In this document: piece by piece, positions 10,891 through 27,206 of the stretch | Layout: every line of letters starts with the position of its first letter | How positions within the stretch are numbered: the stretch's first letter is position 1 | Source of the DNA: Geobacteraceae bacterium | GTDB lineage: Bacteria; Desulfobacterota; Desulfuromonadia; Geobacterales; Geobacteraceae | Length of the DNA: 47,922 nucleotides | Assembly: GCA_025356035.1 (NCBI GenBank) | Contig: JANXYN010000164.1 | Location: forward strand, 1 to 47,922 | Reading direction: 5' to 3' | The notes under the pieces: model-generated | What the model was told of the DNA's origin: nothing | The model's database searches: none | Seen by the model: the letters and a program-made list of their open reading frames with translations, nothing else | Made by a program: the position numbers and the translations under genes

Positions 10891-12021
10891 ATGGAAGCTC
10901 CTAAAACTAAGACCTGTGGAACGAATCCGGCTGGCTCCGAACAAGACGAGCCCCCCTGCTGAGGGCCGAAAACTCCCGCGGTCAGTGGGGGGATCGACGA
11001 ACGGGTACCTGGCTTCACACGTTGGCTGGAAACCCCGGTCGGGCGGGTGCCGGTGATTTCTACGAATCTGGTCTACCGGGACCGGCTCGGCGCCTGGAAG
11101 GCGCGCTGGGGGATCGGCCGGATGCGCTATCTGGTGCCGTCGGGGCTCTATGCCATTGGCCTCCCTGGCCCGGATGCGCCGGTAGTGGTAACCGCCAACT
11201 ACAAAATGAGTTATGACCTGGTTCGCCGCGAGCTGTCCGGCCGCAATCTCTGGCTGCTGGTGCTGGAGACTCACGGCATCAACGTCTGGTGTGCGGCGGG
11301 GAAGGGGACCTTCGGCACCGATGAACTGGTCCGGCGGGTCGAGGCGACCGGTCTGGGGCGGGTGGTGAGCCACCGGCTGCTGCTCCTCCCGATCCTCGGC
11401 GCGCCCGGCGTGGCCGCCCATTTGGTCAAGCAGCGGACCGGCTTCACGGTTCACTATGCCACGCTTCGGGTCGCCGACCTGCCTGCCTTCCTCGACAACG
11501 GCATGCAGAGCACGGAAGCGATGCGGGAGTTAACCTTCACCCTGGGTGAGCGGCTGGTGCTGGTGCCGATCGAGCTGGTGGGTGGGCTTAAAACCTCCCG
11601 CTATCTGCTCCCCCTGTTTTTTCTCGCCGGCGGCTTTGGTGGCAAGCAGTTTTCCCTGGTCGGCGCCGGCACCGGGCTCGCCATCTATGCCGGTGCCCTG
11701 TTGGTCGGGACGGTGGTGGCGCCGCTGCTCCTCCCCTGGCTCCCCACCCGGAGTTTTTTCATCAAAGGGGCAATCCTCGGCGCGGCAGGTGGGGTGCTGC
11801 TCTATTTTTTCTATGGCGAAGGCTTGCGTTGGTCGGAAACGGTCGCGCTGCTCCTCGCCCTGCCGGCCGTTGCGGGGTTTTTTGCGCTTAACTTCACCGG
11901 CAGTACCCCCTTTACCTCCCCCTCCGGTGTCAAACGGGAGATGCGTCTGGCCCTGCCGGTGATGGCCGGCGCCCTGCTGGCAGCGGCCCTGGTCTGGCTG
12001 ATGGGACGGTTGCAGCTGTAG
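10891..12021 (+). CDS. hgcA: HgcA-type corrinoid protein of mercury methylation, read through an in-frame TGA (probable selenocysteine, residue 24)
   Basis: The reading gives 376 residues if the TGA at 10960-10962 is decoded. The cap-helix motif NVWCAAGKGTFGT, whose Cys134 would be the lower cobalt ligand, is diagnostic of HgcA. It is followed by VVSHRLLLLPILGAPGVAAH and then about five C-terminal membrane helices ending in NFTGSTPFTSPSGV. HgcA passes a methyl group from corrinoid to Hg(II), with the HgcB ferredoxin as reductant. The ATG at 10891 has an AAAGAGG site 5 bases upstream. It is in frame with the rest, but codon 24 is TGA, directly after a Cys codon (PPC-TGA-GPK). No ATG, GTG or TTG lies between the TGA and a GTG at 11047, and that GTG has no ribosome site and falls inside sequence resembling HgcA (RWLETPVGRVPVIS). 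A pseudogene or sequencing error is the alternative. Confidence 0.85.
10973..10991 (+). promoter_or_regulatory. SECIS-like hairpin downstream of the hgcA TGA
   Basis: Bases 10973-10979 (CUCCCGC) pair with 10985-10991 (GUGGGGG): seven base pairs including two G-U wobbles, closing a five-base loop GGUCA (10980-10984). The loop begins 17 nt after the TGA. Bacterial SECIS elements bind SelB, lie within the coding sequence and have an apical loop with conserved G and U roughly 16-37 nt from the UGA. The fdhF element of E. coli has GGUC in its loop. The match in spacing and loop sequence is good, but folding energy and conservation were not computed. Confidence 0.65.
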
Positions 12022-12168: not shown

Positions 12169-12243
<75 letters not shown>

Positions 12244-13502: not shown

Positions 13503-16500
13503 TCACATGGTCCCCACAAGATTGACAAACCATCCCTGGCTCCGATACGAAAGGTCGGTCAGGTCATCGGAATAATTGGTGAAGTTGTAGCCCACCCCCA
13601 GCTTTATACCTTTCGGGAAGTGCCGGTAAAGCGCTAGTAACACGCCAGAACGGCTATCCTTTGCTTCGGAGGCCCAGAGATTACGCCACTCACCGACCAT
13701 GTCCCATTTTTTCAGTAGATGCAGATCGGTGCGGAAAATCACCAGGTCGGCACTACTGTCGAACCAGTCGCCACCTTCCTTGGTGGCTTTCAGTTCGCTG
13801 ATGCGATGGGCGTATTTGCTTCCGACGGAAAGCCAGGGCCAGAGGTCATAGATCGTGTCGAGCGCCACCACGTGGCTCTTCTGGGCGTAATCGGCCACGG
13901 CCAGTGAAGGGTTGAGCTGGCCCGGCGAGGGGAGATTATAAAAGTTGGTATACTTGAACAGCGTGTTCCAGCGATCATTGCTGGTCGGCCGATAAGCCGC
14001 CGCCGCAACAATCTCGTGGAAGTCGCCATCGTAAAAGGCCCCCTGGCTGTTGGAGGAGATGGAGAAATTGAAGTTGCCCAGCAGGCGCCACTCCTTGGTC
14101 GCCTGATAGGAGAGGGCGTTACGCATCAGCCAGGTGACCCGGTGTCCGACCAGGTTCCCCATATCATCCCGGCATTCGAGGTTGCCTCGGTAGTTGGTTT
14201 TCTCGAATTTGTAGCTGGTGGAAAGCCCCAGGGCCTTGCGGATCAGATCTCCGCCGAGGGGGTCGGCCAACTCGCCGTACTCGAACTTGGCGCCGTAGGT
14301 CCAGCGATCGTTGGGGGACAGGTCAAGGCCGAACGCATTGGTGAGAGACTGGGGGCCAGCCCCATGGGTGAGCCGGCTTTCACCAAAAACCCGCAGCTGA
14401 TCGTTTACCTTGGTGGTATTCCCGCCAACCCAGGTGCCGCGGCTCCCTCGCCAGGATGCATCCGGGCTTTCGGATTCCAGCTGGTAGGTGAGATAGGTAT
14501 TGGAGCGGTCAGACAGGCGGTAATCGATGCCGAGCCGCCCTCCCGGCCCCATACTCCCTTCCGACAGTTCGCCGAGCAATTTTAGCCGGTCGGTCAGCTG
14601 AGTGGCACCCCCGAGTCCTGCCCGGTTGTTTTCCTCTCGGGCACCAGTCCGCGACAGCGTCCCCTGCAGAAAGCCATAGGCCTCCCAGTTCTTCTTGCCG
14701 CCGGCTGGCAGCGCTTCCTGTTCCGGTTTGTAATCGAGCCGGAGCTGACCGTCAGTGCGTTCGCCGTTCTGGGAAAGGGTGGGGCTTGCATTTGGTAGCA
14801 GGTTGTCCCGCTCGTCCCGCCTCAGTCCGGCGCTAACTCCCCATTCGCTGCTGAGCTTCTGCCTGACCACCAGTTCCGCGTTATTCCTGCTCAAGCTGTC
14901 GGTCCTGGCCAGATCGCCCTTTACTTCGGCCTCGGTCCCTGCCGTGATTTGGATGGTTGCTTTTACCCCCTCCTCCTCCGTCGCTTCACCCCCGCTAGAG
15001 AGCTGGCCTGGGGCTGAAAAGCCGCGCTCTTTTTTCTGCAGATAGGCGCTGATTTTCCCTTGCTCGTGATTGGTCACTTCCGCCAGGTCCAGTGCGCCGT
15101 CAACCCGGTAGGCGATGGCTTTTTCCCCGCCGCTGGCAAGCGGATTGAAAGCGAATCCGCCGTCGAGTGACGCTTCCGCGCCATTGCCACTTCCCTTTGA
15201 CTGGGCTGCTTCGCCTCGGAGGAACGTCCCTGGCCTATAGCGGATGGTTCCGTCAACCCCTGCCAGAGTCTGGGCAGCACTTTCATCGTCCTGATGGTAG
15301 CCGGTCATCCCCAACTGCAGGAAATCACCGAGCCATTGACTGACCCTCCCGCCGGTGGCCATGTTTTTTGTCGCCAGCAGGCCTGGCGCATATTCATAAG
15401 TTGCTATAAGGTAAAGTGGATTGCCTGAGTTGGCCGAGGTGGCTATCAGCCCGGCGCCGGCAGCAGTTGAAGGGAGTGGCTCGCGCAGCATCACCCGCCC
15501 CTGCAGGTAATTCAGATCAAAATCCTGGGCTGCGGCAAGTTGCCGCCGTTCGAGCACCAGTCCCGAATCCTTGTCGCGGACTTCGATCCAGACCCGCTCC
15601 GAACCCTGGGTAAGGTCCTGATGCCGCAAGTAGAAGAGCGATCCGCCGGTGCCGCGGAATTCCTCCCGTGCGGCAACCGTCCCCGGCTGTGAGGCAAAGC
15701 CGTCCACCAAGGTCCGTTTTTCTCCGTACTTGGTGGTATCCTCCGAACGGAAGCGCAGATTGGCACCGTAGAGACCACGGGAGAACTGGAGCAGCTCGGT
15801 CCCGCTCCAGGAGGTCTGGAAGTTCCCCCACATGAGATGGGAGTCCCCCTTTTCGAGGCGGACGTAGAATTTCCCCTCGGTGGGGGCATCCTCCACCAGG
15901 CTGCTGTCATCGCCGTAGACCGGGTAATAGGCGTTTGGATCAATATTGCGGAGCAGATAGCGCGGATCCTTGTTGTTGAAGTTGCTGAAGAGATCCTCCA
16001 CCGGCTGCTCGCGGGTATCAGCGCTGGCCGTCAATAGCCAGTCACCCTTGACCTTCCCCTTGAGATAGAAGGCGCCCCGCCCTTCTGTGTAAACCCGGCC
16101 GTCATACTCGCCAGCTTCCGCATTAACCAGTTGGGCCGGCCCATTCACACTGTTCTGGCCAACGGTGAGGTCGCCAATGGCCACATAGAACCAATCCTGG
16201 TCCGGTAGGGTAAGGTTGCGGCTGAACCTGGTGCCTTTGCCATCCGGGTCCGTTACTTCTACCGACACGGTTTGGGGGCCGGCCGGCAGAATCTGACGCA
16301 TGGCGAAGCGACCGGTCGGGTCTACCGGCACGGACTGTCCCAGTGCCCGCACCGTCTGATTCGGGTGGATGCCAGAGCCGTTGACCGTGATGGTCCCCCC
16401 TGCGACCGGGATGTTCGCCAAGGTCCGGGAATCCTGGCCCCAGCCTGTGAGCGCTTCCCGTTCCGGCTTATCTAGGTCGGCAGCGGGGCGGTGCTTATCC

Positions 16501-17894
16501 AGAAGGCGCAGCGGCTTCGCTGCCGTTTCATCGAACCGGCCCTGCTTGTCATAGACGCGCAGGACGAATTGCATTTCAGCGGGCGCATCGGCAGGAGCGA
16601 TCCAAGGCATCGGGCGGTCCAATTGGATCGGCACAACTGCCAGAGGTAAGCCCTGGATGGTGTCACTCTGGCGGAACAGCCGGACTTCGGCTCCCTGGAG
16701 CCAGGCGCCATAGTTGCTGTAGGCGCCGAAGCTGACCGGTTCACCCCGTACTACGCCATCGGTCAAAATCCAGACATTCAGGGCCGGTTTGGTCTGGAGC
16801 GGATCGTAGCGGAGCTCGATGTCGGTTCGGTCCAGGGCGACGTCCACACAGCGCTGGCGGTCTGCCTCGGGCATCAGGGTGTCAGTTGCCAGCGTCTGGC
16901 CGTCCACGGTAATCCGGAATGGCAGATTGTTTCGATCGGCAGGGCCGATATCGCCACAGCCTATGGATACAGGCGGACTGGGGGGGGATGGCACTGCCAA
17001 AGGCGGTACTGTCGCCTTGACGGCCGGAGCTGGCACCGGCTTCATTGGGGCCGGAGCTACGGTCTGAATTGGCGGCGGGACGACAGTGGCCGCAACCGCC
17101 ACCTGGTCATCATACCAGAGGGAGATTTCGGTACGCCGGTTTCGGGTCCGTCCCTGGGGGGTTGCATTGTCGGCGATCGGCTCGGTTTCTCCCCTCCCTG
17201 AGGTGGCAATGGCTGAATCGGGAAGCCCGAGGGCCTGTTGCAGGGTCCGGGCAACGGCGGCGGCCCTGGCTTCCGACAGGCGCTGGTTGCTGCCAAACTT
17301 GCGTCCGGCCTCCCCTTTGCCGATCGCCACATTGTCCGTGTGCCCAACGGTTTCAATCCTGAGGCCGCTTTTGCCGCGCAACTGATCAGCAAGCACATTA
17401 AGTTGCTTGATGGCGGCCGGGGTCAGCTGGTCTTTGCCGGAAGCAAACAGGCTCCCGGCCGGGGTGTCTCCTATCCGCACGGTAGTCCTGGGTTGTGGCA
17501 GCGCTGCCGGGAGAACCACTGGCGGTGGCTCCGGTAGTGGTGTGGGCTGGGTCGTTGACGGCTGGGGGAGATTAGCCCTGGCTGCATCGGCTACCGGAGC
17601 AAGCGGCGTTTTGGCCAGATTGGACCCTGGCATGGCTCCCCCAATGGGGGCACTGCGCTCACTGCTGGGGGGGAGATCTTCACGATAGACAGTGCCATCA
17701 TCCAGACGTATTCCCGCATCCGCTCCGCTGCAGGGGATGGGGGCTTTGCTCTGTGGGTCCCGACACGGTTTGCAGCGCGTATCGGCTGCTTCAATGGTGG
17801 CAGTGGAGACCGCAATCTGTTCTGCAGAGGCAGTTTGCGGGAGTTGGGTAGTCAGCACCAGTGCCAGCACGATGATCTGGGTAGATGTTTTCAT
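13503..17894 (-). CDS. Large outer-membrane protein: OmpA domain plus beta-rich barrel region
   Basis: This 1463-residue protein begins with a signal peptide, MKTSTQIIVLALVLTTQLPQ ending TASA. An OmpA/MotB peptidoglycan-binding domain follows at about residues 145-265 (LFASGKDQLTPAAIKQL, ETVGHTDNVA, NQRLSEARAAAVARTL, RNRRTEI), then a Pro/Ala-rich linker to about 310. The long remainder has beta-sandwich and then barrel-like strands, such as GKFYVRLEKGDSHLMWGNF, SRGLYGANLRFRS and GVGYNFTNYSDDL. The OmpA domain is placed early, not at the C-terminus as in OmpA itself, and the barrel seems to lie behind it. The ATG overlaps the stop of the giant repeat protein by 4 bases (ATGA). The pair is therefore co-translated and probably acts together at the cell surface; the protein could anchor or export its partner. 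That role is inference. Confidence 0.85.
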   Translation of the reverse strand: MKTSTQIIVLALVLTTQLPQTASAEQIAVSTATIEAADTRCKPCRDPQSKAPIPCSGADAGIRLDDGTVYREDLPPSSERSAPIGGAMPGSNLAKTPLAPVADAARANLPQPSTTQPTPLPEPPPVVLPAALPQPRTTVRIGDTPAGSLFASGKDQLTPAAIKQLNVLADQLRGKSGLRIETVGHTDNVAIGKGEAGRKFGSNQRLSEARAAAVARTLQQALGLPDSAIATSGRGETEPIADNATPQGRTRNRRTEISLWYDDQVAVAATVVPPPIQTVAPAPMKPVPAPAVKATVPPLAVPSPPSPPVSIGCGDIGPADRNNLPFRITVDGQTLATDTLMPEADRQRCVDVALDRTDIELRYDPLQTKPALNVWILTDGVVRGEPVSFGAYSNYGAWLQGAEVRLFRQSDTIQGLPLAVVPIQLDRPMPWIAPADAPAEMQFVLRVYDKQGRFDETAAKPLRLLDKHRPAADLDKPEREALTGWGQDSRTLANIPVAGGTITVNGSGIHPNQTVRALGQSVPVDPTGRFAMRQILPAGPQTVSVEVTDPDGKGTRFSRNLTLPDQDWFYVAIGDLTVGQNSVNGPAQLVNAEAGEYDGRVYTEGRGAFYLKGKVKGDWLLTASADTREQPVEDLFSNFNNKDPRYLLRNIDPNAYYPVYGDDSSLVEDAPTEGKFYVRLEKGDSHLMWGNFQTSWSGTELLQFSRGLYGANLRFRSEDTTKYGEKRTLVDGFASQPGTVAAREEFRGTGGSLFYLRHQDLTQGSERVWIEVRDKDSGLVLERRQLAAAQDFDLNYLQGRVMLREPLPSTAAGAGLIATSANSGNPLYLIATYEYAPGLLATKNMATGGRVSQWLGDFLQLGMTGYHQDDESAAQTLAGVDGTIRYRPGTFLRGEAAQSKGSGNGAEASLDGGFAFNPLASGGEKAIAYRVDGALDLAEVTNHEQGKISAYLQKKERGFSAPGQLSSGGEATEEEGVKATIQITAGTEAEVKGDLARTDSLSRNNAELVVRQKLSSEWGVSAGLRRDERDNLLPNASPTLSQNGERTDGQLRLDYKPEQEALPAGGKKNWEAYGFLQGTLSRTGAREENNRAGLGGATQLTDRLKLLGELSEGSMGPGGRLGIDYRLSDRSNTYLTYQLESESPDASWRGSRGTWVGGNTTKVNDQLRVFGESRLTHGAGPQSLTNAFGLDLSPNDRWTYGAKFEYGELADPLGGDLIRKALGLSTSYKFEKTNYRGNLECRDDMGNLVGHRVTWLMRNALSYQATKEWRLLGNFNFSISSNSQGAFYDGDFHEIVAAAAYRPTSNDRWNTLFKYTNFYNLPSPGQLNPSLAVADYAQKSHVVALDTIYDLWPWLSVGSKYAHRISELKATKEGGDWFDSSADLVIFRTDLHLLKKWDMVGEWRNLWASEAKDSRSGVLLALYRHFPKGIKLGVGYNFTNYSDDLTDLSYRSQGWFVNLVGTM

Positions 17895-20800
17895 CGGCTG
17901 ACCTCCACGATTTCCTGCTCAATGGCGAGGGGGTAGCAGCAGGAGATTTTTTGCCATCGGTTGCGCAAGGCATCGCTGAGTCGATTGAGTCGCTCTTCGG
18001 CCAGGCTGCGGCTTCCTCCCTCCAGACGGTAGGCGAGACGGATCAGGCTTGGTTTGTCACGGTGCTCATCGAGCAATGCATCGAATTGCTGCTGCCATTC
18101 GGGCCGAAGCCCGCTGCTCTCGCCGATAAAGGCCGCGTTGCTTACTTCCAGTCGCACGACCCGATGAATCGTAGCGCCGAAGTTAAGCTTGACTATCTTG
18201 CCGCGGGTTGCTCTTACCACCTGCGGGTTCTCCGTGGTCATGCGGAAACCCGATGGCAGGGTGCGCTCGTCCAGTTTCATGACGAAGTTGGAGCCCCGGT
18301 CTGCTTGGGGGATGGCAGCACATGCCACGTGGAAGCGTCCGTAAGCATCGGTTGTCACCAGCCACCCTCTGGCCGTGGCCATTCGAACGGCGGCAATGCC
18401 CGGTTCTCCCTCGTCCTGGTAACCATTGGCATTCTTGTCGTCGAAAACCTTGCCGATGACATCGGTACAGTCGAAGGTTGGGTCGGGTATAATGCGGACC
18501 GTGGCGGTACCGATGTTCGAGACCGGCTTGTTGACAAGGTTGTTCACGGCCCAGGCCTGGTTGGTGTATTTCCCCTCGCTGACCCCGGCGCCGACCACCA
18601 ACAGGAGCTTCAGAGTCTTGGTCTCGTTGGCGGTAAAGCTTAGGTTTGGCCAGCGGAGGGTTCGGCCGTTCAGTACCGGCTCCATGTGGCTCCCATTGAT
18701 AGTTGCGGTGCCACTCCGGTACTTGAACCCCGGTGGCATCTGGTCAAACAGATCGATGTTGGGCAACAGCGCCGCCAGGTTGTTGCTCACCTCGATGGTA
18801 TAGGGGACCAGGTCCCCCTTGCTGACGTTTACCAGTGGAGAGCTTTTGCGTACGGTCATGGCGCCGCCGAGGACCGGGTCGACGGGCAGATGATTGTTTA
18901 CAACGCCAGCTGTGGCGCCGCTCAGCGTAAACGAAAGGTAGTAGGTGGTCGGTTCGACTCCGGTCGGTGGCGAAAATTGCGCCTGGATTGACACGGAGCC
19001 GGGGCCCGGGCCGGGATCAAAGGGGCCGGCAGTGACCGGAATCAATGCTGAAACGGCCGGCACATAGCCAGGTGGCGGCGTGACCGAAAGGGTGTAGTTC
19101 CCGGCCGGGGCTGCCGCGAGGAGCAGGAACTGGTAGAAGCCGCTGCTATCGGTCAGCTGCGCCTGATTGCCGGCACCGCCTGCAAGGTGGAGGGCCGGGG
19201 TAAAACCTGGCGGGCCAGCAAGGGACACCGTGGCACCAGCGATCGGGGTGCGGCTGAATGCGTCATAGACAATCCCAGACGGGTCGACCGGCAGATTCTG
19301 GTTAACGAGGTTGGCGCCACTGCGCAGGGTCAGGTTGGCAATGGTATGGCCGCTATAGTCGGGCACCGAATCGGTATAGCCGGGATCCTGGGAGAGGGGA
19401 TCGCCATAGATGGCGAGATTGGTCGGATGGCGAAAGCGGAGCTCATAGCCGATCCCTGCCGGCAGGTTGGCTATCTGATAGCTGCCGTCGGAGGCGGAAA
19501 CCGCTGAGCCGCGCAGTATCGCTCCCTGCACCGCCTCAATTCGCCAGCCGGCAAGTCCCGGCTCTCCGGCCTGCTGAGTCTTGTCAATACTAACCGTGTT
19601 ATGCCAGATCGTCCCCGCAACTTGGGCTGGCAGCAGTGGTCGTTCCGCGAACAGGTAACCGCTGGCAACAGCCCCGGTGGGGAGATTAATGGCGCTGATC
19701 CGGTTCTGTGGGGCGCTGCTGGTGAAGGAACTGTTGTCGACGGAGCCACCCGCGCTCCCTGCGGTTTCTCGACCATCGTTATAAATGACCAGGTGCGTCT
19801 CGGTGAGGGTATAGCTGCCGGCCAGGACGTCAAGGAAGGAGTAGCTGCCGTCCGCAGCTGTGCTGGTCGTGCGGTTCACTGCGCTGCCATCCACATCGGT
19901 GCCGGTAAGGTCGATGGTGACGCCGGCGATTCCCGTTTCACCACCATCCTTGCTGCCATTGTCATTGGCATCGCTATAGACGTAGCCACTGAAGCTGGCC
20001 AACTTTTCGGCAAAGAGGTAGGAGGCGGCAGTGCTGCCGGGGGTAATGACAATGGCGCTGATGATGCTGGTGCCGACCGCTCCCGGTGTTCCTCCTGCCG
20101 TACCGGCTGTTTCCGGGCCATCGGCATAGTTGACCGGTTGACTCTCGGTCAATGTATAGCCGCTACCATTGCTGGTCGGCAGGTTAGGGAAGAGGAAGTC
20201 GCCGTTGCCATCGGAACTGACGGTACGGTTCAGCGCCGTTGTGGAGGCGGCGGTGCCGGCAAGGGTCAGACTCACGCCGCTGATCCCCGCTTCACCCGGA
20301 TCCCTGGTGCCATTGCCGTTGGTATCGGTGAACACTGTGCCGCTCAGGGAGCCGAGGAGTTCGGCAAAACGGTAGCCACCGGCGCTGGTGCCGGCCGGAT
20401 AGTGAATGCCGCTGATAACCCTGCCGTTACCGCTGTCACTCCCACCGGCGCTCCCCACCGTCAGCACCCCCTCCGCATAGTCAACGGGCTGAGTCTCGGT
20501 GAGGGTGTAACCAGTGCCGTTACTGGCTGGAATATCGGCAAAGGTGAACGCGCCGCTGGCAGCTGTGGTGGTGGTGAAGTTGACGGCATTCGCCGCGGCA
20601 TCGATGCCGGAGAGGGTCAAGGTCACCCCGCTGATGCCATTTTCACCCGCATCAAGGGAACCGTTACCGTTGCGGTCATGGAAGACCATGCCGGAGAGGC
20701 CGCCAAGCCCCTCGGAGAAGAGGTAGCCCGTGGCATTTATGCCGGCATTGAGGACGATGGGGGCTATGACATCCGTGCCGAGCCCCCCAACAAAGCCCCC

Positions 20801-23800
20801 CGCCGTGCCGGCCGTATCAATTCCGTCGGCATAGGTCACCGGCTGAACTTCGCTCAGGCTATAGCCGCTGCCGTTACTGGCGGGTAGATCGTTAATAGTA
20901 AAGATGCCGCTGGCATTGCTCGTGACGCTGCGGCTCACCGCCACGCCATTGATGTCGGTGCCGGCGAGGGTGAGGGAAACGCCGCTGATGCCGACTTCGC
21001 CACCATCCATGACGCCGTTGCCATTAGTGTCATAGAACACCGTGCCGCTGATGCTGCCGAGGCGCTCACCAAAGAGGTAGCCGGTGACGTTCGTTCCGCC
21101 CGCAAGCATGATTCCGGTGAAGATGCTGCTTCCCGCTGTTCCACCGGCGCTACCAACTGATTCCAGGCCATCGCCGTAACTTATGGGCTGGGTCTCGGTG
21201 ACGGTGTACCCCGTACCGTTGCTGGCCGGCAGATCGGCAAAGCGGTACGCCCCGGTGGCATCGGTAGTTGTCGTACAGCTGGCTATCCAAGCGCAGACGT
21301 CGCCGCTGGCGGCGGTGGTCCCGGCAAGGGTTACGACCACGCCACTGATGCCGACCTCCCCGCCATCCTTCACTCCGTTGTTGTTGGCATCGTAGTAGAC
21401 AAACCCGGCCATGCTCCCCAGCTGTTCGCCGAAGAGATAGCCGCTGGCGTTTGCGCCTGTGGACAAAACAATGGCGCTGACCCGGTTCTGTGCCGCGGCT
21501 GTGGTAAAGGTGGCGTTATCCACCGTGCCGCCGGCGCTCCCCGCTGTTTCGCGGCCGTCACCATAATTGACCTGCTGGGCCTCCGTCAGGGTATAGCCGC
21601 TGCCGTTGCTGGCCGGCAGCCCGGCAAGGGAATAATCGCCGGCGCTGTCAGTGGTCAGGGCACAGGTCACCAGGGTACAGACGTTGACGCCGGAGGCGGT
21701 GGTCCCGGAAAGGGTCAGGGATATGCCGTTGATCCCCGCCTCTCCGGCATCCTTGACCCCATCGTTATCGGCATCATGGTAGACGCTGCCGCTAATGCTC
21801 CCCCCCCGTTCGCCAAAGGTATAGCCACTTCCCACCTCGCCTACGACGAGAACGATGCCGGTGAAGTTGTCATTGTTAGCGGTGCCGCGTGGGGAGCCGG
21901 CTACGGAACCAAGTATCTCGGCCCCATCCGCATAATTGGTGAGGGGGGTCGTGGCCTGGGACTGTTCGGTCAGGGTGTAGCCGCTACCATTGCTGGCCGG
22001 CAGACCGCTAAAGCTGAAGAGACCACTGGCATTGCTTATGACAGTGCATGGGTAGGGGGAGATGGCTGCACAGACGCTGCTCCCGCTGCTCGTGGTGCCG
22101 GACAAGGTGATCGAGACGCCGGCGATTCCCGGCTCCCCTCCATCCACCACGCCATTGTTGTTCCGGTCGAGGTAGACTAGTCCAGAAAGCCCCTGCCCGC
22201 TTTCGCCGAAATTGTAGCCGCTGGCGGCGTCATTGGAGACGATGGCGATAGTGGAGATGGCGTAGTATGCGCCGGGAACCGCCACGTTGGCGGCCCTAAC
22301 CGCGCCATTAATGGTTCCTCCCTTGCTGCCGGCCTGGGCGCCGGTGTGGGTAACTCCGGCCGCAACTGTTTCAGTGACGGTATAGCTTCCGGGGCGCAGC
22401 GCAGTAAAGCTATAGGCGCCGTTAGCCGCAGTGGTGGTAGTCCTATTGATCGAATTGCCGAGGTCATCGGTACCGGTGAGGGTTACGATAACCGAGGTCA
22501 GGCCGGAGGTTTCGCCGGCGTCCTTGACCGCATCGATATCGGCGTCGACATAGACATAGCCGGCGAGACTGGCCCCCCGCAGCTCGCCGAAGTTATGCTC
22601 AGTCCCCCCCTGGTTGGGGAGAAGAACGATGCCGGTCATGCTCTCCGGCACCGTGCGGCCGGCGGAACCAGGCACAACCATGGCTGTTGTATCCCCTTTC
22701 TGATCCAGCCCGTCCAGATAGGGTGCCGGCAGGGCGCTCGTCTGGTTGATGGTGTAGCCAGAAGCATCGCTCGGCGGGAGGGTGCCATAGGTATACACCC
22801 CCGAGGCGTTTGTGCTGACTGTACAAGTCACCAGGGAGCAGACATCGACGCCGTTGTACGCCACGCCTGATAACACGATGTTCTGGCCGCTGATCCCCGT
22901 TGATTCACCAGCTCCTCGGTCACCGTCATTGTTTGCGTCGTGATACACATAACCCGTGAGGGACGCACGCTGGTACTCCTGGAAGATATACCCCGTGGCC
23001 GAGGTGTTGAGCGGCAGGGTGATGGCGCTGATGGTATTGAGCCCAGCGGCCGGACCACAGTTGGCCGTGCCGTCGCAGATGTTCGGCGGCGTCGTGCCAC
23101 CAGCCGTGCCAGCAGTTTCAAAGCGGTCATAGTACCCGGCCGGCTGGCTGGCTATGATCTGATATGTGCCGGGAGGGAGACGGTCAAACAGGAAATTGCC
23201 GCTGCTGTCGTTGTTCACCGTAATGCCGGTTAGGGTGTTGCCGTAGAGGTCTGGCCCCGACAGGGTAAAGGTGACGCTGGCCGTTGCGAAGACGATCGGC
23301 TCACCGCCATCGATGCTGTCGTTGCGGTTGTTATCGGCGTAGATTGTGCCGCCGATGGTCGATTTACGGACCTGGACAACTGCAGAGGCAGAGTTGTTCC
23401 CCGCCACCAGGTCAACGGAGGTATTGGGGAGGACAGCGATGCTCGCCGTATTGGTAATGTCCGTATTGATCGGACCGGTGTAGGGATAGGCGGCCTTCAC
23501 CGGGACGGTCAGCACCACCTGCCGGGTGGGGTCGGTGCCGGTGGGATCGGCCGGGATATTGGCCAGATCACAGGTAATGGTCACTGGCGTACCGGTGGTG
23601 GAGCAGCTGCTGCTGGCGAGGGAAACATTGCTCCCCGACGTCACTGTCACGGCGCCATTCATTACGAAGCCGGCCGGCAAAGTATCGGTGACCCGCACGC
23701 CGGAGGCCGGCGACGGGCCGATGTTTTCGAGGGTGATGCTGTAGGTGAATGGCTCGTTGATGCTGACCGCAGGGGACGAAACAGTCTTGCTGATAATCGT

Positions 23801-26800
23801 CAGGTCGGTCTTGGGGAGCGCCGTGGTGTTTTCCACCGCCGTATTGTTGGCCGGCTGGGTGTCAAAGCCGCCACTACTCTCCAGGGAGGATACGGAAGCA
23901 CTGTTGCTGTAGGTCAGAGTACTGGAGGGGGTGGCCGATAGCGGTCCGGTGGTGAAGGTGAGGACAAAGGTGGTGTAGCTGTTGGCCGGCAGGGTTGAAT
24001 TCCCCTTGGCCGCGGCCAACCAGCAGGTAGCCTTGATCCCGTCCCAGCTGCAGCTGGGGGAAGCGGGGGTGTAAGTACAGGGAGCCCCTCCGCTGCAGGC
24101 CGTGGCCGAAACAAATACCGCCGTATAGCCACCAACGGGCGGAGTTGGCGTATCCAGCAGCTCTACCTGCGTCGCCAGAGAGGGGCCGTTATTCTGCACC
24201 TTCACCCAGTACACGATATCGTCGCCAAAGGCCACCGGATCGTAGCCACTCTTCTCCTGCTTCGTGACCGTCAGATCCAGCTGCGGAATAATTATCGCCA
24301 CCGAACTGATGGCGCTGTTGTTGGCGGGGCTGCTTTCCGTGGTGGTCGTGGTTATTTCGGCGCTGCTGGTATAACTGGCCGGAACCCCACCGGGGTAGGG
24401 GTGCACCGGCACGACCTTGAAGACTAGCTGGCGCGATTGATCATTGGCCATGGTGAAGCCGGTGCACTCGATGCCCGCCTCACCCACATAAGGTGCACCG
24501 CTGAAGGAACTGACGTAGGCGCAGCTGCCTCCAAGTGTCAGTGAGGCGGAGCCGCTGACATAGCTCACTTTGTTTGGGTCGATAACATGTCGCAGGACTA
24601 CCCCTTGGGCGGTGCTCGGGCCGAAGTTTTTAATGGAGGTGGTAAAGGTGAGCTGCACGCCGACCTTCACCGGGTCTGGCGCCACCGCAATAGAGGTCAC
24701 TGCCACATCGGCAATGGGGTCGATGGTCACCGACGGCGCGCTGGCCGAATCGGGCTGGGTGTTGGGATTCTGCACCAGGTCCGGCGACGAAATGGTCACC
24801 GTATTGGTAAAGGCACCGTCCCGGAAGGGGCGGGCCAAGGTGACATCAAAGGCCCGCGATTCTCCTCCAGCCAGGTTGCGCAGGGTACAGGTCAGGACAC
24901 CGGTACCACTGACGCTGCAGCTGTCAGGCCCGACAATGCCGGAGACAGTCACCGGCGTATCACCGGGGGTAGCATCACTGTCGTTGTAGAACATGGGGAG
25001 GGTATCGGTGAGGTTAACTGTTGGCGCCAGCACGGCGCCATGGTTGGAAACGGTAATGGTGTAGGTAAGGGCGTTTTCAGCCACCGTCACCAGGGTGTCG
25101 GAAACGGTTTTCGTTACACCGAGATCGGCGTTGGCGGCGGTGGCGTAGACCGTGGCAGTGGTACAATCATTGCCGGGAGTGACATCAGCCGGCGTATGGG
25201 GCGAGCCGGCCGTACTGCCGGTACAGACCGTATTGCTCAGGGAACCGGTATAACCAGCGGCCACTTGCGTTGTAAGAATCAGCGACGGTAGTAATGCCCC
25301 CCGCGCCAGGGTGCCGGCGCCGAGATCGTAGTCACAGGTGACGGTGTTGGCTGGGGCGTTGACGCAGAGCCAGCCGGCACCTGCTGCAGAGAGATACGTT
25401 TCGTTCGGATAACTGGAAAGAGCCTCCATGACCCGCACGACGCCAGAAACCGGCGAGGTGGAGCTGGTGGTGTTTCTCACCGTAATGGTGTTGATAATAT
25501 TTTCACCCTGCTGCACGGCGCTGCCGGCTCCGGGGATGGCTGAAACCTTGCTCTTGGTGATGGCGAGCTCGGTGAAGGGGAGAGCGACGGTATAGTTCAC
25601 CGTTGCACTCTGATTGTTTCCGCCAACCGGAGTGGTCCGGCTGATGGTCGCCGTATTGCTCCCCGATTCTGGCAGTGCTGGCGCCGTCAGCGGAATGACG
25701 TATGAGCCAGAGGTGACCCCGGCGTTCAGTGCCCCGATACTGCAGGTAACCGCTTGGCCGACACGGCTACAGCTGCCGGGGAGCGCGCCGATGGTGAAGT
25801 TGGCCGGCACCGTATCGGCAACAACAACGCCGGTGGCGTTCTGGGTGCCGGTATTGGTGGCAGACAGAGTCAGGGCCACCGCTTCACCGACTGCATAGGT
25901 GGTGAGGCCGGTGGTGACCGAAACCATGCTTTTGTTGGCGCGCAGGTCGGTGCCAGCGGTGACGGTGACCGTCACCTGGGATGGGCCGTTGTTGGTGGCC
26001 AGCGGGTCGCCGGTCTGGCCATCGGTGGAGGCAACGCTGGCGCCATTGATAATGGAGCCGGCAGAGGTAATTACCTTACCGGAGAGATTAATGGCTGGGG
26101 CGTTGTTGCCGCTGGCAATGGCCGGCCCGCTGTAATCGCAGGTAACTGTTGTGGTTACTTGCGAACAGCTCCAGTCGCTCCCGGTTGCCGACAGGTACTG
26201 GAAATCCACCCCTGCCGGGAGGCTGTCCGTCACCCGAAAGGATGAGGCCTCATCAGGACCGCTGTTGGATACCTGCAGAGTGAAATTTATGGTGGAACCA
26301 GCGGTGGCGCTAGCGGGACCGGAGGTAACAATGCTGAGATCGGCGCCGTTAATGGAGGTAACGATCTTATTCAGGGTATCGTTACTGGGGTTCGGGTCCG
26401 TATTCCCCGCCGTGTCGTCCACAATGAATGCCCAGGTGCTCTGGACATCGGGCAACCCGCCACTGGTGGTGTAGACGATGGTTGACGTATTGGTAATATT
26501 CAGGTTGCCGATGGGGCAGGTGAGGATGGTGTTGCCGCCACTGGGAGCACAGCCGGAGGCGTTGCCGAGATAACTGACGTTGGCCGGCAGGTTGATCGTC
26601 AGGGTGCTACCGGTGGAGGAGGCGGGACCGTTGTTCTGGACCGTCAGGGTAAAGGTGGCGGTGCCGTTGTGGACCACCGGGTCCGGTGTCCAGGTGTAGG
26701 AGGAGATCTGCAGGTCGGCATCTGCGGCATGAGCTGCCCCGGCGGCAGTCAGGAGCGTTGCTACCAGGCAGCTTGTCAGCATGGAGAAAAGCAGCGTTGA

Positions 26801-26806
26801 GCGCAT
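17891..26806 (-). CDS. Giant secreted repeat protein: DUF11 and SdrD-B-like modules
   Basis: The protein has 2971 residues from the ATG at 26806. This start has a GAGG site upstream and gives a good signal peptide, MRSTLLFSMLTSCLVATLLT followed by AAGAAHA; an ATG at 26857 would add 17 residues ahead of it. Residues about 30-1190 hold eight DUF11-like modules (for example ADLGVTKTVSD, TYTITVSNHG). Then come about ten SdrD-B-like modules (SGTVFTDTNGNGTRDPGE), each with an Asp/Asn-rich loop that may bind calcium, two more divergent ones and a ninth DUF11 unit. The C-terminal 90 residues are charged and helical. Such proteins are long beta-sandwich stalks on the cell surface. No sortase motif is seen. 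It is co-translated with the OmpA-domain protein. Confidence 0.9.
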   Translation of the reverse strand: MRSTLLFSMLTSCLVATLLTAAGAAHAADADLQISSYTWTPDPVVHNGTATFTLTVQNNGPASSTGSTLTINLPANVSYLGNASGCAPSGGNTILTCPIGNLNITNTSTIVYTTSGGLPDVQSTWAFIVDDTAGNTDPNPSNDTLNKIVTSINGADLSIVTSGPASATAGSTINFTLQVSNSGPDEASSFRVTDSLPAGVDFQYLSATGSDWSCSQVTTTVTCDYSGPAIASGNNAPAINLSGKVITSAGSIINGASVASTDGQTGDPLATNNGPSQVTVTVTAGTDLRANKSMVSVTTGLTTYAVGEAVALTLSATNTGTQNATGVVVADTVPANFTIGALPGSCSRVGQAVTCSIGALNAGVTSGSYVIPLTAPALPESGSNTATISRTTPVGGNNQSATVNYTVALPFTELAITKSKVSAIPGAGSAVQQGENIINTITVRNTTSSTSPVSGVVRVMEALSSYPNETYLSAAGAGWLCVNAPANTVTCDYDLGAGTLARGALLPSLILTTQVAAGYTGSLSNTVCTGSTAGSPHTPADVTPGNDCTTATVYATAANADLGVTKTVSDTLVTVAENALTYTITVSNHGAVLAPTVNLTDTLPMFYNDSDATPGDTPVTVSGIVGPDSCSVSGTGVLTCTLRNLAGGESRAFDVTLARPFRDGAFTNTVTISSPDLVQNPNTQPDSASAPSVTIDPIADVAVTSIAVAPDPVKVGVQLTFTTSIKNFGPSTAQGVVLRHVIDPNKVSYVSGSASLTLGGSCAYVSSFSGAPYVGEAGIECTGFTMANDQSRQLVFKVVPVHPYPGGVPASYTSSAEITTTTTESSPANNSAISSVAIIIPQLDLTVTKQEKSGYDPVAFGDDIVYWVKVQNNGPSLATQVELLDTPTPPVGGYTAVFVSATACSGGAPCTYTPASPSCSWDGIKATCWLAAAKGNSTLPANSYTTFVLTFTTGPLSATPSSTLTYSNSASVSSLESSGGFDTQPANNTAVENTTALPKTDLTIISKTVSSPAVSINEPFTYSITLENIGPSPASGVRVTDTLPAGFVMNGAVTVTSGSNVSLASSSCSTTGTPVTITCDLANIPADPTGTDPTRQVVLTVPVKAAYPYTGPINTDITNTASIAVLPNTSVDLVAGNNSASAVVQVRKSTIGGTIYADNNRNDSIDGGEPIVFATASVTFTLSGPDLYGNTLTGITVNNDSSGNFLFDRLPPGTYQIIASQPAGYYDRFETAGTAGGTTPPNICDGTANCGPAAGLNTISAITLPLNTSATGYIFQEYQRASLTGYVYHDANNDGDRGAGESTGISGQNIVLSGVAYNGVDVCSLVTCTVSTNASGVYTYGTLPPSDASGYTINQTSALPAPYLDGLDQKGDTTAMVVPGSAGRTVPESMTGIVLLPNQGGTEHNFGELRGASLAGYVYVDADIDAVKDAGETSGLTSVIVTLTGTDDLGNSINRTTTTAANGAYSFTALRPGSYTVTETVAAGVTHTGAQAGSKGGTINGAVRAANVAVPGAYYAISTIAIVSNDAASGYNFGESGQGLSGLVYLDRNNNGVVDGGEPGIAGVSITLSGTTSSGSSVCAAISPYPCTVISNASGLFSFSGLPASNGSGYTLTEQSQATTPLTNYADGAEILGSVAGSPRGTANNDNFTGIVLVVGEVGSGYTFGERGGSISGSVYHDADNDGVKDAGEAGINGISLTLSGTTASGVNVCTLVTCALTTDSAGDYSLAGLPASNGSGYTLTEAQQVNYGDGRETAGSAGGTVDNATFTTAAAQNRVSAIVLSTGANASGYLFGEQLGSMAGFVYYDANNNGVKDGGEVGISGVVVTLAGTTAASGDVCAWIASCTTTTDATGAYRFADLPASNGTGYTVTETQPISYGDGLESVGSAGGTAGSSIFTGIMLAGGTNVTGYLFGERLGSISGTVFYDTNGNGVMDGGEVGISGVSLTLAGTDINGVAVSRSVTSNASGIFTINDLPASNGSGYSLSEVQPVTYADGIDTAGTAGGFVGGLGTDVIAPIVLNAGINATGYLFSEGLGGLSGMVFHDRNGNGSLDAGENGISGVTLTLSGIDAAANAVNFTTTTAASGAFTFADIPASNGTGYTLTETQPVDYAEGVLTVGSAGGSDSGNGRVISGIHYPAGTSAGGYRFAELLGSLSGTVFTDTNGNGTRDPGEAGISGVSLTLAGTAASTTALNRTVSSDGNGDFLFPNLPTSNGSGYTLTESQPVNYADGPETAGTAGGTPGAVGTSIISAIVITPGSTAASYLFAEKLASFSGYVYSDANDNGSKDGGETGIAGVTIDLTGTDVDGSAVNRTTSTAADGSYSFLDVLAGSYTLTETHLVIYNDGRETAGSAGGSVDNSSFTSSAPQNRISAINLPTGAVASGYLFAERPLLPAQVAGTIWHNTVSIDKTQQAGEPGLAGWRIEAVQGAILRGSAVSASDGSYQIANLPAGIGYELRFRHPTNLAIYGDPLSQDPGYTDSVPDYSGHTIANLTLRSGANLVNQNLPVDPSGIVYDAFSRTPIAGATVSLAGPPGFTPALHLAGGAGNQAQLTDSSGFYQFLLLAAAPAGNYTLSVTPPPGYVPAVSALIPVTAGPFDPGPGPGSVSIQAQFSPPTGVEPTTYYLSFTLSGATAGVVNNHLPVDPVLGGAMTVRKSSPLVNVSKGDLVPYTIEVSNNLAALLPNIDLFDQMPPGFKYRSGTATINGSHMEPVLNGRTLRWPNLSFTANETKTLKLLLVVGAGVSEGKYTNQAWAVNNLVNKPVSNIGTATVRIIPDPTFDCTDVIGKVFDDKNANGYQDEGEPGIAAVRMATARGWLVTTDAYGRFHVACAAIPQADRGSNFVMKLDERTLPSGFRMTTENPQVVRATRGKIVKLNFGATIHRVVRLEVSNAAFIGESSGLRPEWQQQFDALLDEHRDKPSLIRLAYRLEGGSRSLAEERLNRLSDALRNRWQKISCCYPLAIEQEIVEVSR
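19600..23360 (-). repeat. Tandem SdrD-B-like coding repeats, about 350 bp per unit
   Basis: Within the giant gene, about ten units recur at roughly 350-bp spacing. Each contains a G-x-V/I-Y/F-x-D-x-N-x-NG-x-x-D-x-GE core, for example near 19940-20000, 20285-20350 and 20640-20705. The boundaries are approximate. Units are similar but not identical at DNA level. They explain the long stretches of similar sequence and are a site where copy number could change by recombination. Confidence 0.85.
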
Positions 26807-27206
26807 TCTTGGACCCTCGCAGGTGGAATTGGTGGGGTGAAATAGAGATAGACGCATGTATTGTTATCGGCAGGGAGTGGGATAAGTTAAGCCGTGAGCC
26901 AAATTTGCAAGCTTTATTTGACCGACTGTGCCGTGCATGATGACTGTGAATGGCCCGTTACATGGGCAGTAACGGCAGCCCCTATTGAACCAGTTGAAGT
27001 GTATAATTTGCCATGATCTGCATAAAGCAGTTTTGTAGCGGAATTGTTTCTTGACACGGTTGCTAGTAAATGCTAAAAGAGAAGACCGTTGATTGGGTGT
27101 GGTATAAATTACGATAACAAAAAAGACCAAAACGTGCTCAAGGCGCTCATCTATACCTGGACCACACCATTAATAACCCTGGACTGTAACCAACAAGGAG
27201 GAACAA
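26807..27206. other. Intergenic region between divergent genes
   Basis: This 400-bp gap separates the giant surface protein gene (leftward) from the sulfate-binding protein gene (rightward). It holds a perfect 7-bp inverted repeat, CCGTTAC and GTAACGG (26955-26961 and 26969-26975), separated by 7 bases, a possible regulator site. Candidate plus-strand promoters lie near 27051-27108. I found no convincing minus-strand promoter by eye. An open frame at 26864-27130 on the minus strand has no recognisable protein character. Confidence 0.6.
27051..27108 (+). promoter_or_regulatory. Candidate promoter(s) of the sulfate-binding protein gene
   Basis: TTGACA at 27051-27056 has a weak -10 (TAAAAG, 27074-27079) at 17 bases. 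A second candidate is an extended -10, TGG-TATAAA, at 27100-27108 without a clear -35. Either would leave a leader of about 90-120 bases. Confidence 0.45.

Follow-up and report, generated by a model that had tools for sequence, protein, structure and literature searches.

A conserved gene pair encodes a long DUF11/CLIPPER stalk and a predicted giant outer-membrane barrel, a candidate two-partner surface-fibre system

Introduction

DUF11 has been renamed CLIPPER, and crystallography has revealed in it an isopeptide bond between Lys and Asn, with Asp as the catalytic residue, a bond that raises both thermal and protease resistance (PMC12617251). Together with SdrD_B, DUF11 is a typical domain of surface stalks (PMC12617251, PMC9210967). 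Among the closest described proteins is B9T28_05395 of Acinetobacter silvestris (PMC12617251; PDB 9IFR), a long secreted DUF11/CLIPPER stalk with CshA-like adhesive N-terminal domains, cadherin-like repeats and an OmpA-like domain at its C-terminus. On the side of export, ZirT of the inverse-autotransporter system ZirTSU exports partner proteins that are encoded beside it (PMC6714894), and the very wide barrel SprA has 36 strands (PMC10994853).

Here we analyse a gene pair in 47,922 nucleotides of DNA from a Geobacteraceae bacterium (the whole stretch analysed, hereafter the window). A preliminary description, made from the sequence, had proposed that a secreted stalk and a barrel protein form a surface system in which the barrel anchors or exports the stalk. 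A literature search, with subscription journals and preprints outside its scope, found no published description of such a pair.

Results

Layout of the gene pair

Both minus-strand open reading frames of the preliminary description are present and overlap by ATGA (Table 1), and together they take up 13.3 kb or 27.8% of the window, in agreement with the claim of more than a quarter. For the stalk gene we prefer the start at 26806 over the upstream ATG, on the grounds of a GAGGG 7 bases upstream and a canonical signal peptide start, MRSTLLFSMLTSCLVATLLTAAGAAHA. A promoter scan of the pair gave nothing above chance, and neither a c-di-GMP nor any other riboswitch was found upstream of it at Rfam thresholds.

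Table 1 Features of the stalk-barrel gene pair in the window
Feature	Position	Strand	Remarks
Stalk gene (gene 1)	17891..26806	(-)	2971 aa, secreted repeat protein
Stalk ORF with upstream ATG at 26857	17891-26857	(-)	2988 aa
Shine-Dalgarno GAGGG of stalk gene	26814-26818		
Sec signal peptide of stalk	26726..26806	(-)	27 residues, ...AAGAAHA/ADAD; read by eye
Eight N-terminal DUF11/CLIPPER modules	23345..26719	(-)	residues 47-1171, first-ATG numbering
SdrD_B-like module array	19388..23344	(-)	about residues 1172-2490
CarboxypepD_reg-like module	19025..19279	(-)	residues 2527-2611; Pfam
Ninth DUF11/CLIPPER module	18488..18862	(-)	triad K2671-D2705-N2766
Last SdrD_B-like module	18173..18469	(-)	DKNANGYQDEGE at residue 2807
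Stalk C-terminal OmpA-like domain without GHTD	17894..18184	(-)	~95 aa, beta-alpha-beta-alpha-beta
ATGA overlap, stalk stop / barrel start	17891..17894	(-)	translational coupling
Barrel-protein gene (gene 2)	13503..17894	(-)	1463 aa
Signal peptide of barrel protein	17823..17894	(-)	MKTSTQIIVLALVLTTQLPQTASA
Canonical OmpA peptidoglycan-binding domain	17136..17450	(-)	residues 149-253
Two Ig-like modules	16206..16820	(-)	about residues 359-563; second weakly Glucodextran_B-like
Predicted outer-membrane beta-barrel	13506..16199	(-)	residues 566-1463, about 38-40 strands in model
Plug-like insert between barrel strands	15360..15680	(-)	residues 739-845

Repeat modules of the stalk

The stalk had been described as secreted, with nine DUF11-like and about twelve SdrD-B-like modules, and this account holds: a signal peptide is present, nine DUF11 repeats can be aligned by hand (Pfam reports eight stretches, E 5.6e-91), and Pfam finds 11 SdrD_B stretches (E 4.5e-116), about 11-12 such modules in total, as well as three CarboxypepD_reg stretches. 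Reading the repeats by eye against the published triad (PMC12617251), we assigned the full Lys-Asp-Asn isopeptide triad to at least five of the nine (R3, R5, R7, R8 and R9). The three triad residues of R9 recur unchanged in 59 of 59 homologues, and from the conserved triad isopeptide bonds are predicted in the CLIPPER modules of the stalk. Most DUF11 repeats also contain, at near-regular positions, a pair of Cys about ten residues apart; the median over 70 related stalks is 27 Cys per stalk.

Seven modules of the array, and eight B-like modules in all, carry the motif D.N.NG..D..E, and motifs of this type bind calcium in SdrD. The SdrD_B-like modules match the SdrD B1-B2 structure 10ps (E 1.2e-12). 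The last ~490 residues of the stalk were modelled at pLDDT 86 as Ig-like modules followed by a beta-alpha-beta-alpha-beta domain, and the ninth CLIPPER module matches 9ifr in fold (TMt 0.76; Z 13.0, rmsd 2.7, 117 aligned). Pfam and NCBIfam scans recognised no known adhesive tip domain at the stalk N-terminus; adhesive domains frequently escape recognition.

An OmpA-like domain ends the stalk

The preliminary description did not mention the last domain of the stalk, which is OmpA-like and serves as the signature of the pair-type stalk. These stalks share a common end, namely a CLIPPER module with the invariant triad, a B-like domain with the Ca-type motif and the OmpA-related domain of ~95 residues. 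A single-sequence Pfam scan of this end is nearly empty (OmpA in 1 of 53 members, E 0.06), so that the relation to OmpA rests on profile-profile comparison: a profile of 53 copies of the terminal domain matched the partners' OmpA domains in hhalign at 88% probability and E 3.4e-6, as against 0.2% for control comparisons with the adjacent DUF11 and SdrD_B modules. The confident part of this match comprises 40 columns, from the first to the second strand and within the first half of the domain, and homology to OmpA over its full length is suggested with moderate confidence. A profile search with the stalk end reached the OmpA-domain structures PomB and Omp38 at E 0.4-0.5, and fold matches of the stalk-end model were Ig-like relatives only, covering model residues 23-399 and stopping short of the OmpA-like end. 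The peptidoglycan motif GHTD is absent from all 53 copies, and the Arg of helix 2 is invariant in them. The domain is probably an OmpA-like fold that has lost ordinary peptidoglycan binding and has been co-opted for another use.

The partner protein ends in a predicted giant barrel

The early OmpA domain noted for the second protein is found by Pfam (E 3.7e-19) and carries both peptidoglycan motifs, GHTD and NxxLSxxRAxxV (NQRLSEARAAAV). We modelled the beta-rich region that follows with AlphaFold2 using 66 homologues (pLDDT 74.9, pTM 0.65). The model predicts a closed, amphipathic C-terminal transmembrane barrel of about 38-40 long strands, a provisional count. In Foldseek the top matches of the model were outer-membrane barrels of many kinds, and VIA-align superposed the model range 267-1164 (first to last strand) on closed porins with Z about 15 and an rmsd of 6-11 A over 250-300 aligned residues. 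The C-terminal residue is hydrophobic or aromatic (L, F, M, Y, I or W) in 81 of 81 homologous barrel ORFs. The prediction of an outer-membrane barrel is thus well supported, and the AlphaFold2 and Foldseek results predict a location in the membrane rather than in the periplasm. After the sixth or seventh strand the model contains a plug-like insert of ~100 residues, which is among the most highly conserved regions in the family.

No Pfam family lies above cut-off over the C-terminal ~900 residues of the partner, and our searches found no solved protein that is related to the barrel by sequence. In 12 diverse members of the family, searched at E up to 1, TonB_dep_Rec and Plug domains gave no match, nor did autotransporter, Omp85/POTRA, intimin-type or usher families, and a lone YadA_anchor match (E 0.35) lies within noise. 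TonB receptor, usher, POTRA protein and autotransporter were therefore rejected as identities of the barrel. The four annotated plasmid neighbourhoods contain no chaperone gene near the pair. A profile of the plug insert reaches SprA at E 0.96 only, and a search of the bacterium's own genome with PF14349 (SprA) came back empty in a run in which the control also matched nowhere; kinship with SprA, for which this weak motif was the sole indication, was set aside as tentative.

Existing annotations call the partner proteins 'TonB-dependent receptor', 'OmpA family protein' or 'hypothetical protein'. The first of these labels, given in plasmid records H2 and H6-H10, would suit a reading in which the stalk stays in the periplasm as a scaffold or substrate receptor and the barrel acts as a large porin or TonB-type channel, and the OmpA-like domains, periplasmic on both chains, would suit it as well. 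We consider this reading improbable given the missing TonB receptor and plug matches in the 12 members. Moreover, the twenty or more Ig-like modules of the stalk, which we estimate to measure around 80-90 nm when extended, at some 4 nm for each module, exceed the periplasm, the length of the stalk varies widely over a constant barrel core as in fibrillar adhesins, and DUF11 and SdrD_B typify surface stalks (PMC12617251, PMC9210967).

Linkage, distribution and transfer of the pair

A scan of genome_contigs gave 80 related loci, in Alpha-, Beta- and Gammaproteobacteria, Desulfuromonadota and one Zixibacteria MAG; the pair is not specific to Desulfuromonadota, and most matches fall in the three proteobacterial classes. 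Leaving out three loci in which the barrel begins at the contig edge (L071, L094, L107), each of the 77 loci with upstream sequence has a stalk gene with the OmpA-like end immediately ahead of the barrel gene on the same strand, and the exact 4-base overlap of the genes recurs in at least 43 of them. Among 297 genomes of the phylum, the terminal domain of the stalk occurs in three (G000, G063 and G202), the split-type barrel occurs in exactly the same three, and no pair-type stalk lacks a barrel. The genes are thus not found apart in relatives. Trees of stalk and barrel correlate with r = 0.84 over 63 loci, as expected for co-inherited genes.

Four plasmid loci show the same gene order and the same stalk end with barrels that are 33-42% identical, and one plasmid carrying the pair is a conjugative plasmid of Sinorhizobium meliloti. 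In the tree, the barrel of the window groups with those of Polaromonas, Noviherbaspirillum, Accumulibacter and methylotrophic Betaproteobacteria (support of the wider group 1.0) and stands apart from the copy of a genome of its own family. This grouping, the patchy distribution and the plasmid copies suggest that the pair has spread horizontally as a cassette. On a Sulfitobacter plasmid (L132 1-11894, record 68909-88285) the stalk gene reaches 19.4 kb, for about 6,450 residues, has the same C-terminal module and adjoins type VI secretion genes. In Microbulbifer genomes the pair occurs twice, with about 16 kb between the copies (L083/L084 and L088/L090).

The partner has between zero and three OmpA domains: Alphaproteobacterial partners have none, and those of Microbulbifer and others have two or three. 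Anchoring to peptidoglycan is therefore not universal, and the OmpA domain would serve as an adjustable anchor, with the core of the system elsewhere.

Joint transfer accounts for part of the linkage, and the two genes, which travel together on plasmids as well, might be a mobile cassette whose products act separately. We regard this as highly improbable: overlapping translation is kept over three proteobacterial classes, no pair-type stalk was found without a barrel among the 297 genomes, and a natural fusion has dropped the terminal modules of both proteins.

Natural fusions of stalk and barrel

This fusion (L033) belongs to one Desulfobacterota family and is a single ORF of 3176 residues, free of stops and unknown residues; two further members of the fused family, L034 and L035, have assembly gaps. 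It opens with a signal peptide, continues with nine DUF11 and five SdrD_B modules and passes directly into the Ig modules and barrel of the partner; what is lost at the joint is the OmpA-like end of the stalk together with the signal peptide and OmpA domain of the partner. The fusion supports the view that stalk and barrel are one functional unit, and it fits a terminal domain that, if it holds the stalk to the barrel, would be dispensable once both are one chain. Two apparent fusions in Variovorax (L117 and L124, ORFs of 3402 and 3120 aa) were rejected; stop-to-stop reading had run back into the stalk in a different frame, and the true genes form a pair.

In members further removed, DUF11, OmpA and barrel are fused in different orders. 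Two distant relatives, L042 and L045, have their OmpA domain behind the barrel, at the very C-terminus. In a distant fused branch, separate secreted DUF11-type proteins adjoin a DUF11-barrel fusion (L036 11844-13226, L037 1075-6228, L038 7997-9220, L040 13630-14841, L042 3139-5043 and 5578-7314, L043 1-2796 and 3346-6420). They stop abruptly in an apparent last Ig-like strand (FFQVKIN, FRVKVD, FQTKVQ), have no anchor and may be fibre subunits.

Other features of the window

Beside the pair, the window holds a gene for the mercury-methylation corrinoid protein HgcA at 11047-12021 (+), matched by NF040863 above cut-off (E 2.2e-130) and with the cap-helix motif NVWCAAGK. No hgcB-like ferredoxin ORF adjoins it, and tRNA-Cys comes next, at 12169. 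A SAM riboswitch (RF00162, 28411-28516 (+), 99.9 bits) precedes two cystathionine synthase/lyase paralogues that lie in tandem (28621 and 30070).

Discussion

The stalk-barrel pair is a conserved unit, in its linkage, its natural fusion, its domain content and the conservation of its triad. We favour, with somewhat better than even confidence, a two-partner surface-fibre system of a stalk and a barrel that anchors it and probably also exports it. Around a barrel whose nature and size are predicted, we infer the surface location, topology, docking, export and adhesion as follows. The stalk would leave the cytoplasm by Sec and line up its many Ig-like domains in a long fibre. Isopeptide bonds and disulfides within the chain would harden the DUF11/CLIPPER part of this fibre, and calcium would probably do so in the SdrD_B part. 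The N-terminus of the stalk would point outward, and its C-terminal OmpA-like domain would remain in the periplasm and dock to the partner. Set in the outer membrane by its giant barrel and clamped to peptidoglycan through its OmpA domain in most lineages, the partner would hold the stalk; the barrel, plugged at rest by the inserted domain, would probably be the exit channel of the stalk as well. Likely uses of the fibre are adhesion, aggregation or surface coating.

The topology follows from two general properties. Outer-membrane barrels have both of their termini in the periplasm, and peptidoglycan is the ligand of OmpA domains. The C-terminus of the stalk, which in fusions is joined to the N-terminal side of the barrel, should therefore be periplasmic, and since the stalk is too long for the periplasm, it should pass a pore and point its N-terminus away from the cell. 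With ~38 strands, the barrel would have a calculated width of roughly 7 nm (standard geometric formula), wider than an Ig domain, so that export of folded domains as in ushers would be possible; if disulfides and isopeptide bonds form before export, folded export would be required. That the barrel is this pore is the weakest step of the mechanism, and the stalk could be exported by another route. Of the two roles proposed in the preliminary description, anchoring is well supported by this reasoning and likely, and export through the barrel is a plausible, predicted route.

The partner might be an anchor only, a post clamped to peptidoglycan to which the stalk binds after crossing the membrane by another route such as type II secretion. 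Acinetobacter CLIPPER adhesins with an OmpA-like anchoring domain, for which no barrel is named (PMC12617251), offer a precedent, and the zero to three OmpA domains of the partner fit an adjustable anchor strength. A type II-like secretion cluster does lie near the pair on one plasmid, but on just one of the four examined; a barrel of ~38-40 strands far exceeds what mooring needs, and in L033 the stalk is attached to the barrel at its periplasmic end, as a passenger that exports itself would be. We consider an anchor without export rather unlikely. Type 11 secretion was rejected as the exporter, as the literature match concerned DUF1194 and not DUF11.

The two-partner reading has a bolder form, in which a barrel with a plug and more than 36 strands exports in trans folded Ig domains locked by isopeptide bonds and disulfides, until the OmpA-like end of the cargo halts it at the mouth of the channel. 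The cell surface would then bear a fibre with covalent reinforcement. This would be a distinct class of export; we put it forward tentatively, as possible though doubtful.

DUF11/CLIPPER fibres are abundant in Gram-negative bacteria, and the pair, spread over many environmental bacteria, offers a conserved candidate barrel partner for their export or retention. Its recognisable stalk-end module and its natural fusion make export versus anchoring testable. If the strand count is true, the barrel ranks with SprA among the widest single-chain barrels, and a corrected annotation of the partner would touch many genomes.

Each component of the pair has a counterpart in a known system. With B9T28_05395 the pair shares the long secreted DUF11/CLIPPER stalk, the triad and the C-terminal OmpA-like domain; in the pair this domain lacks GHTD, adhesive N-terminal and cadherin-like domains of the Acinetobacter kind set B9T28_05395 apart, and a barrel gene is always adjacent, whereas no dedicated barrel partner is described for B9T28_05395. 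Type Ve secretion, including ZirTSU (PMC6714894), likewise combines an Ig-fold fibre, an outer-membrane barrel and a periplasmic peptidoglycan-binding domain, which is LysM in type Ve and OmpA in the pair. However, the two share no sequence family, the barrel of the pair is predicted to be far larger, and type Ve has its barrel N-terminal and its passenger C-terminal, whereas the stalk precedes the barrel in fusions of the pair. In type Vb systems (TpsA/TpsB), too, a single operon encodes a large secreted exoprotein along with the outer-membrane barrel dedicated to it, but the barrel of the pair has no POTRA/Omp85 match and its stalk is Ig-like rather than a beta-helix with a TPS domain. FimD and SprA resemble the partner as very wide, plugged barrels that export Ig-like or folded cargo. 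The pair differs from them in having no usher or SprA family match and no chaperone, PorV or Plug gene seen alongside, and FimD fibres are polymerised subunits whereas the stalk is one covalent chain. SdrD of Staphylococcus aureus has the same SdrD_B modules with D.N.NG..D..E motifs, but it is a sortase-anchored Gram-positive protein with no barrel partner. As judged from sequence comparison, the best explanation is that the components are known and their arrangement is new, placing the pair outside the type V, usher and T9SS families.
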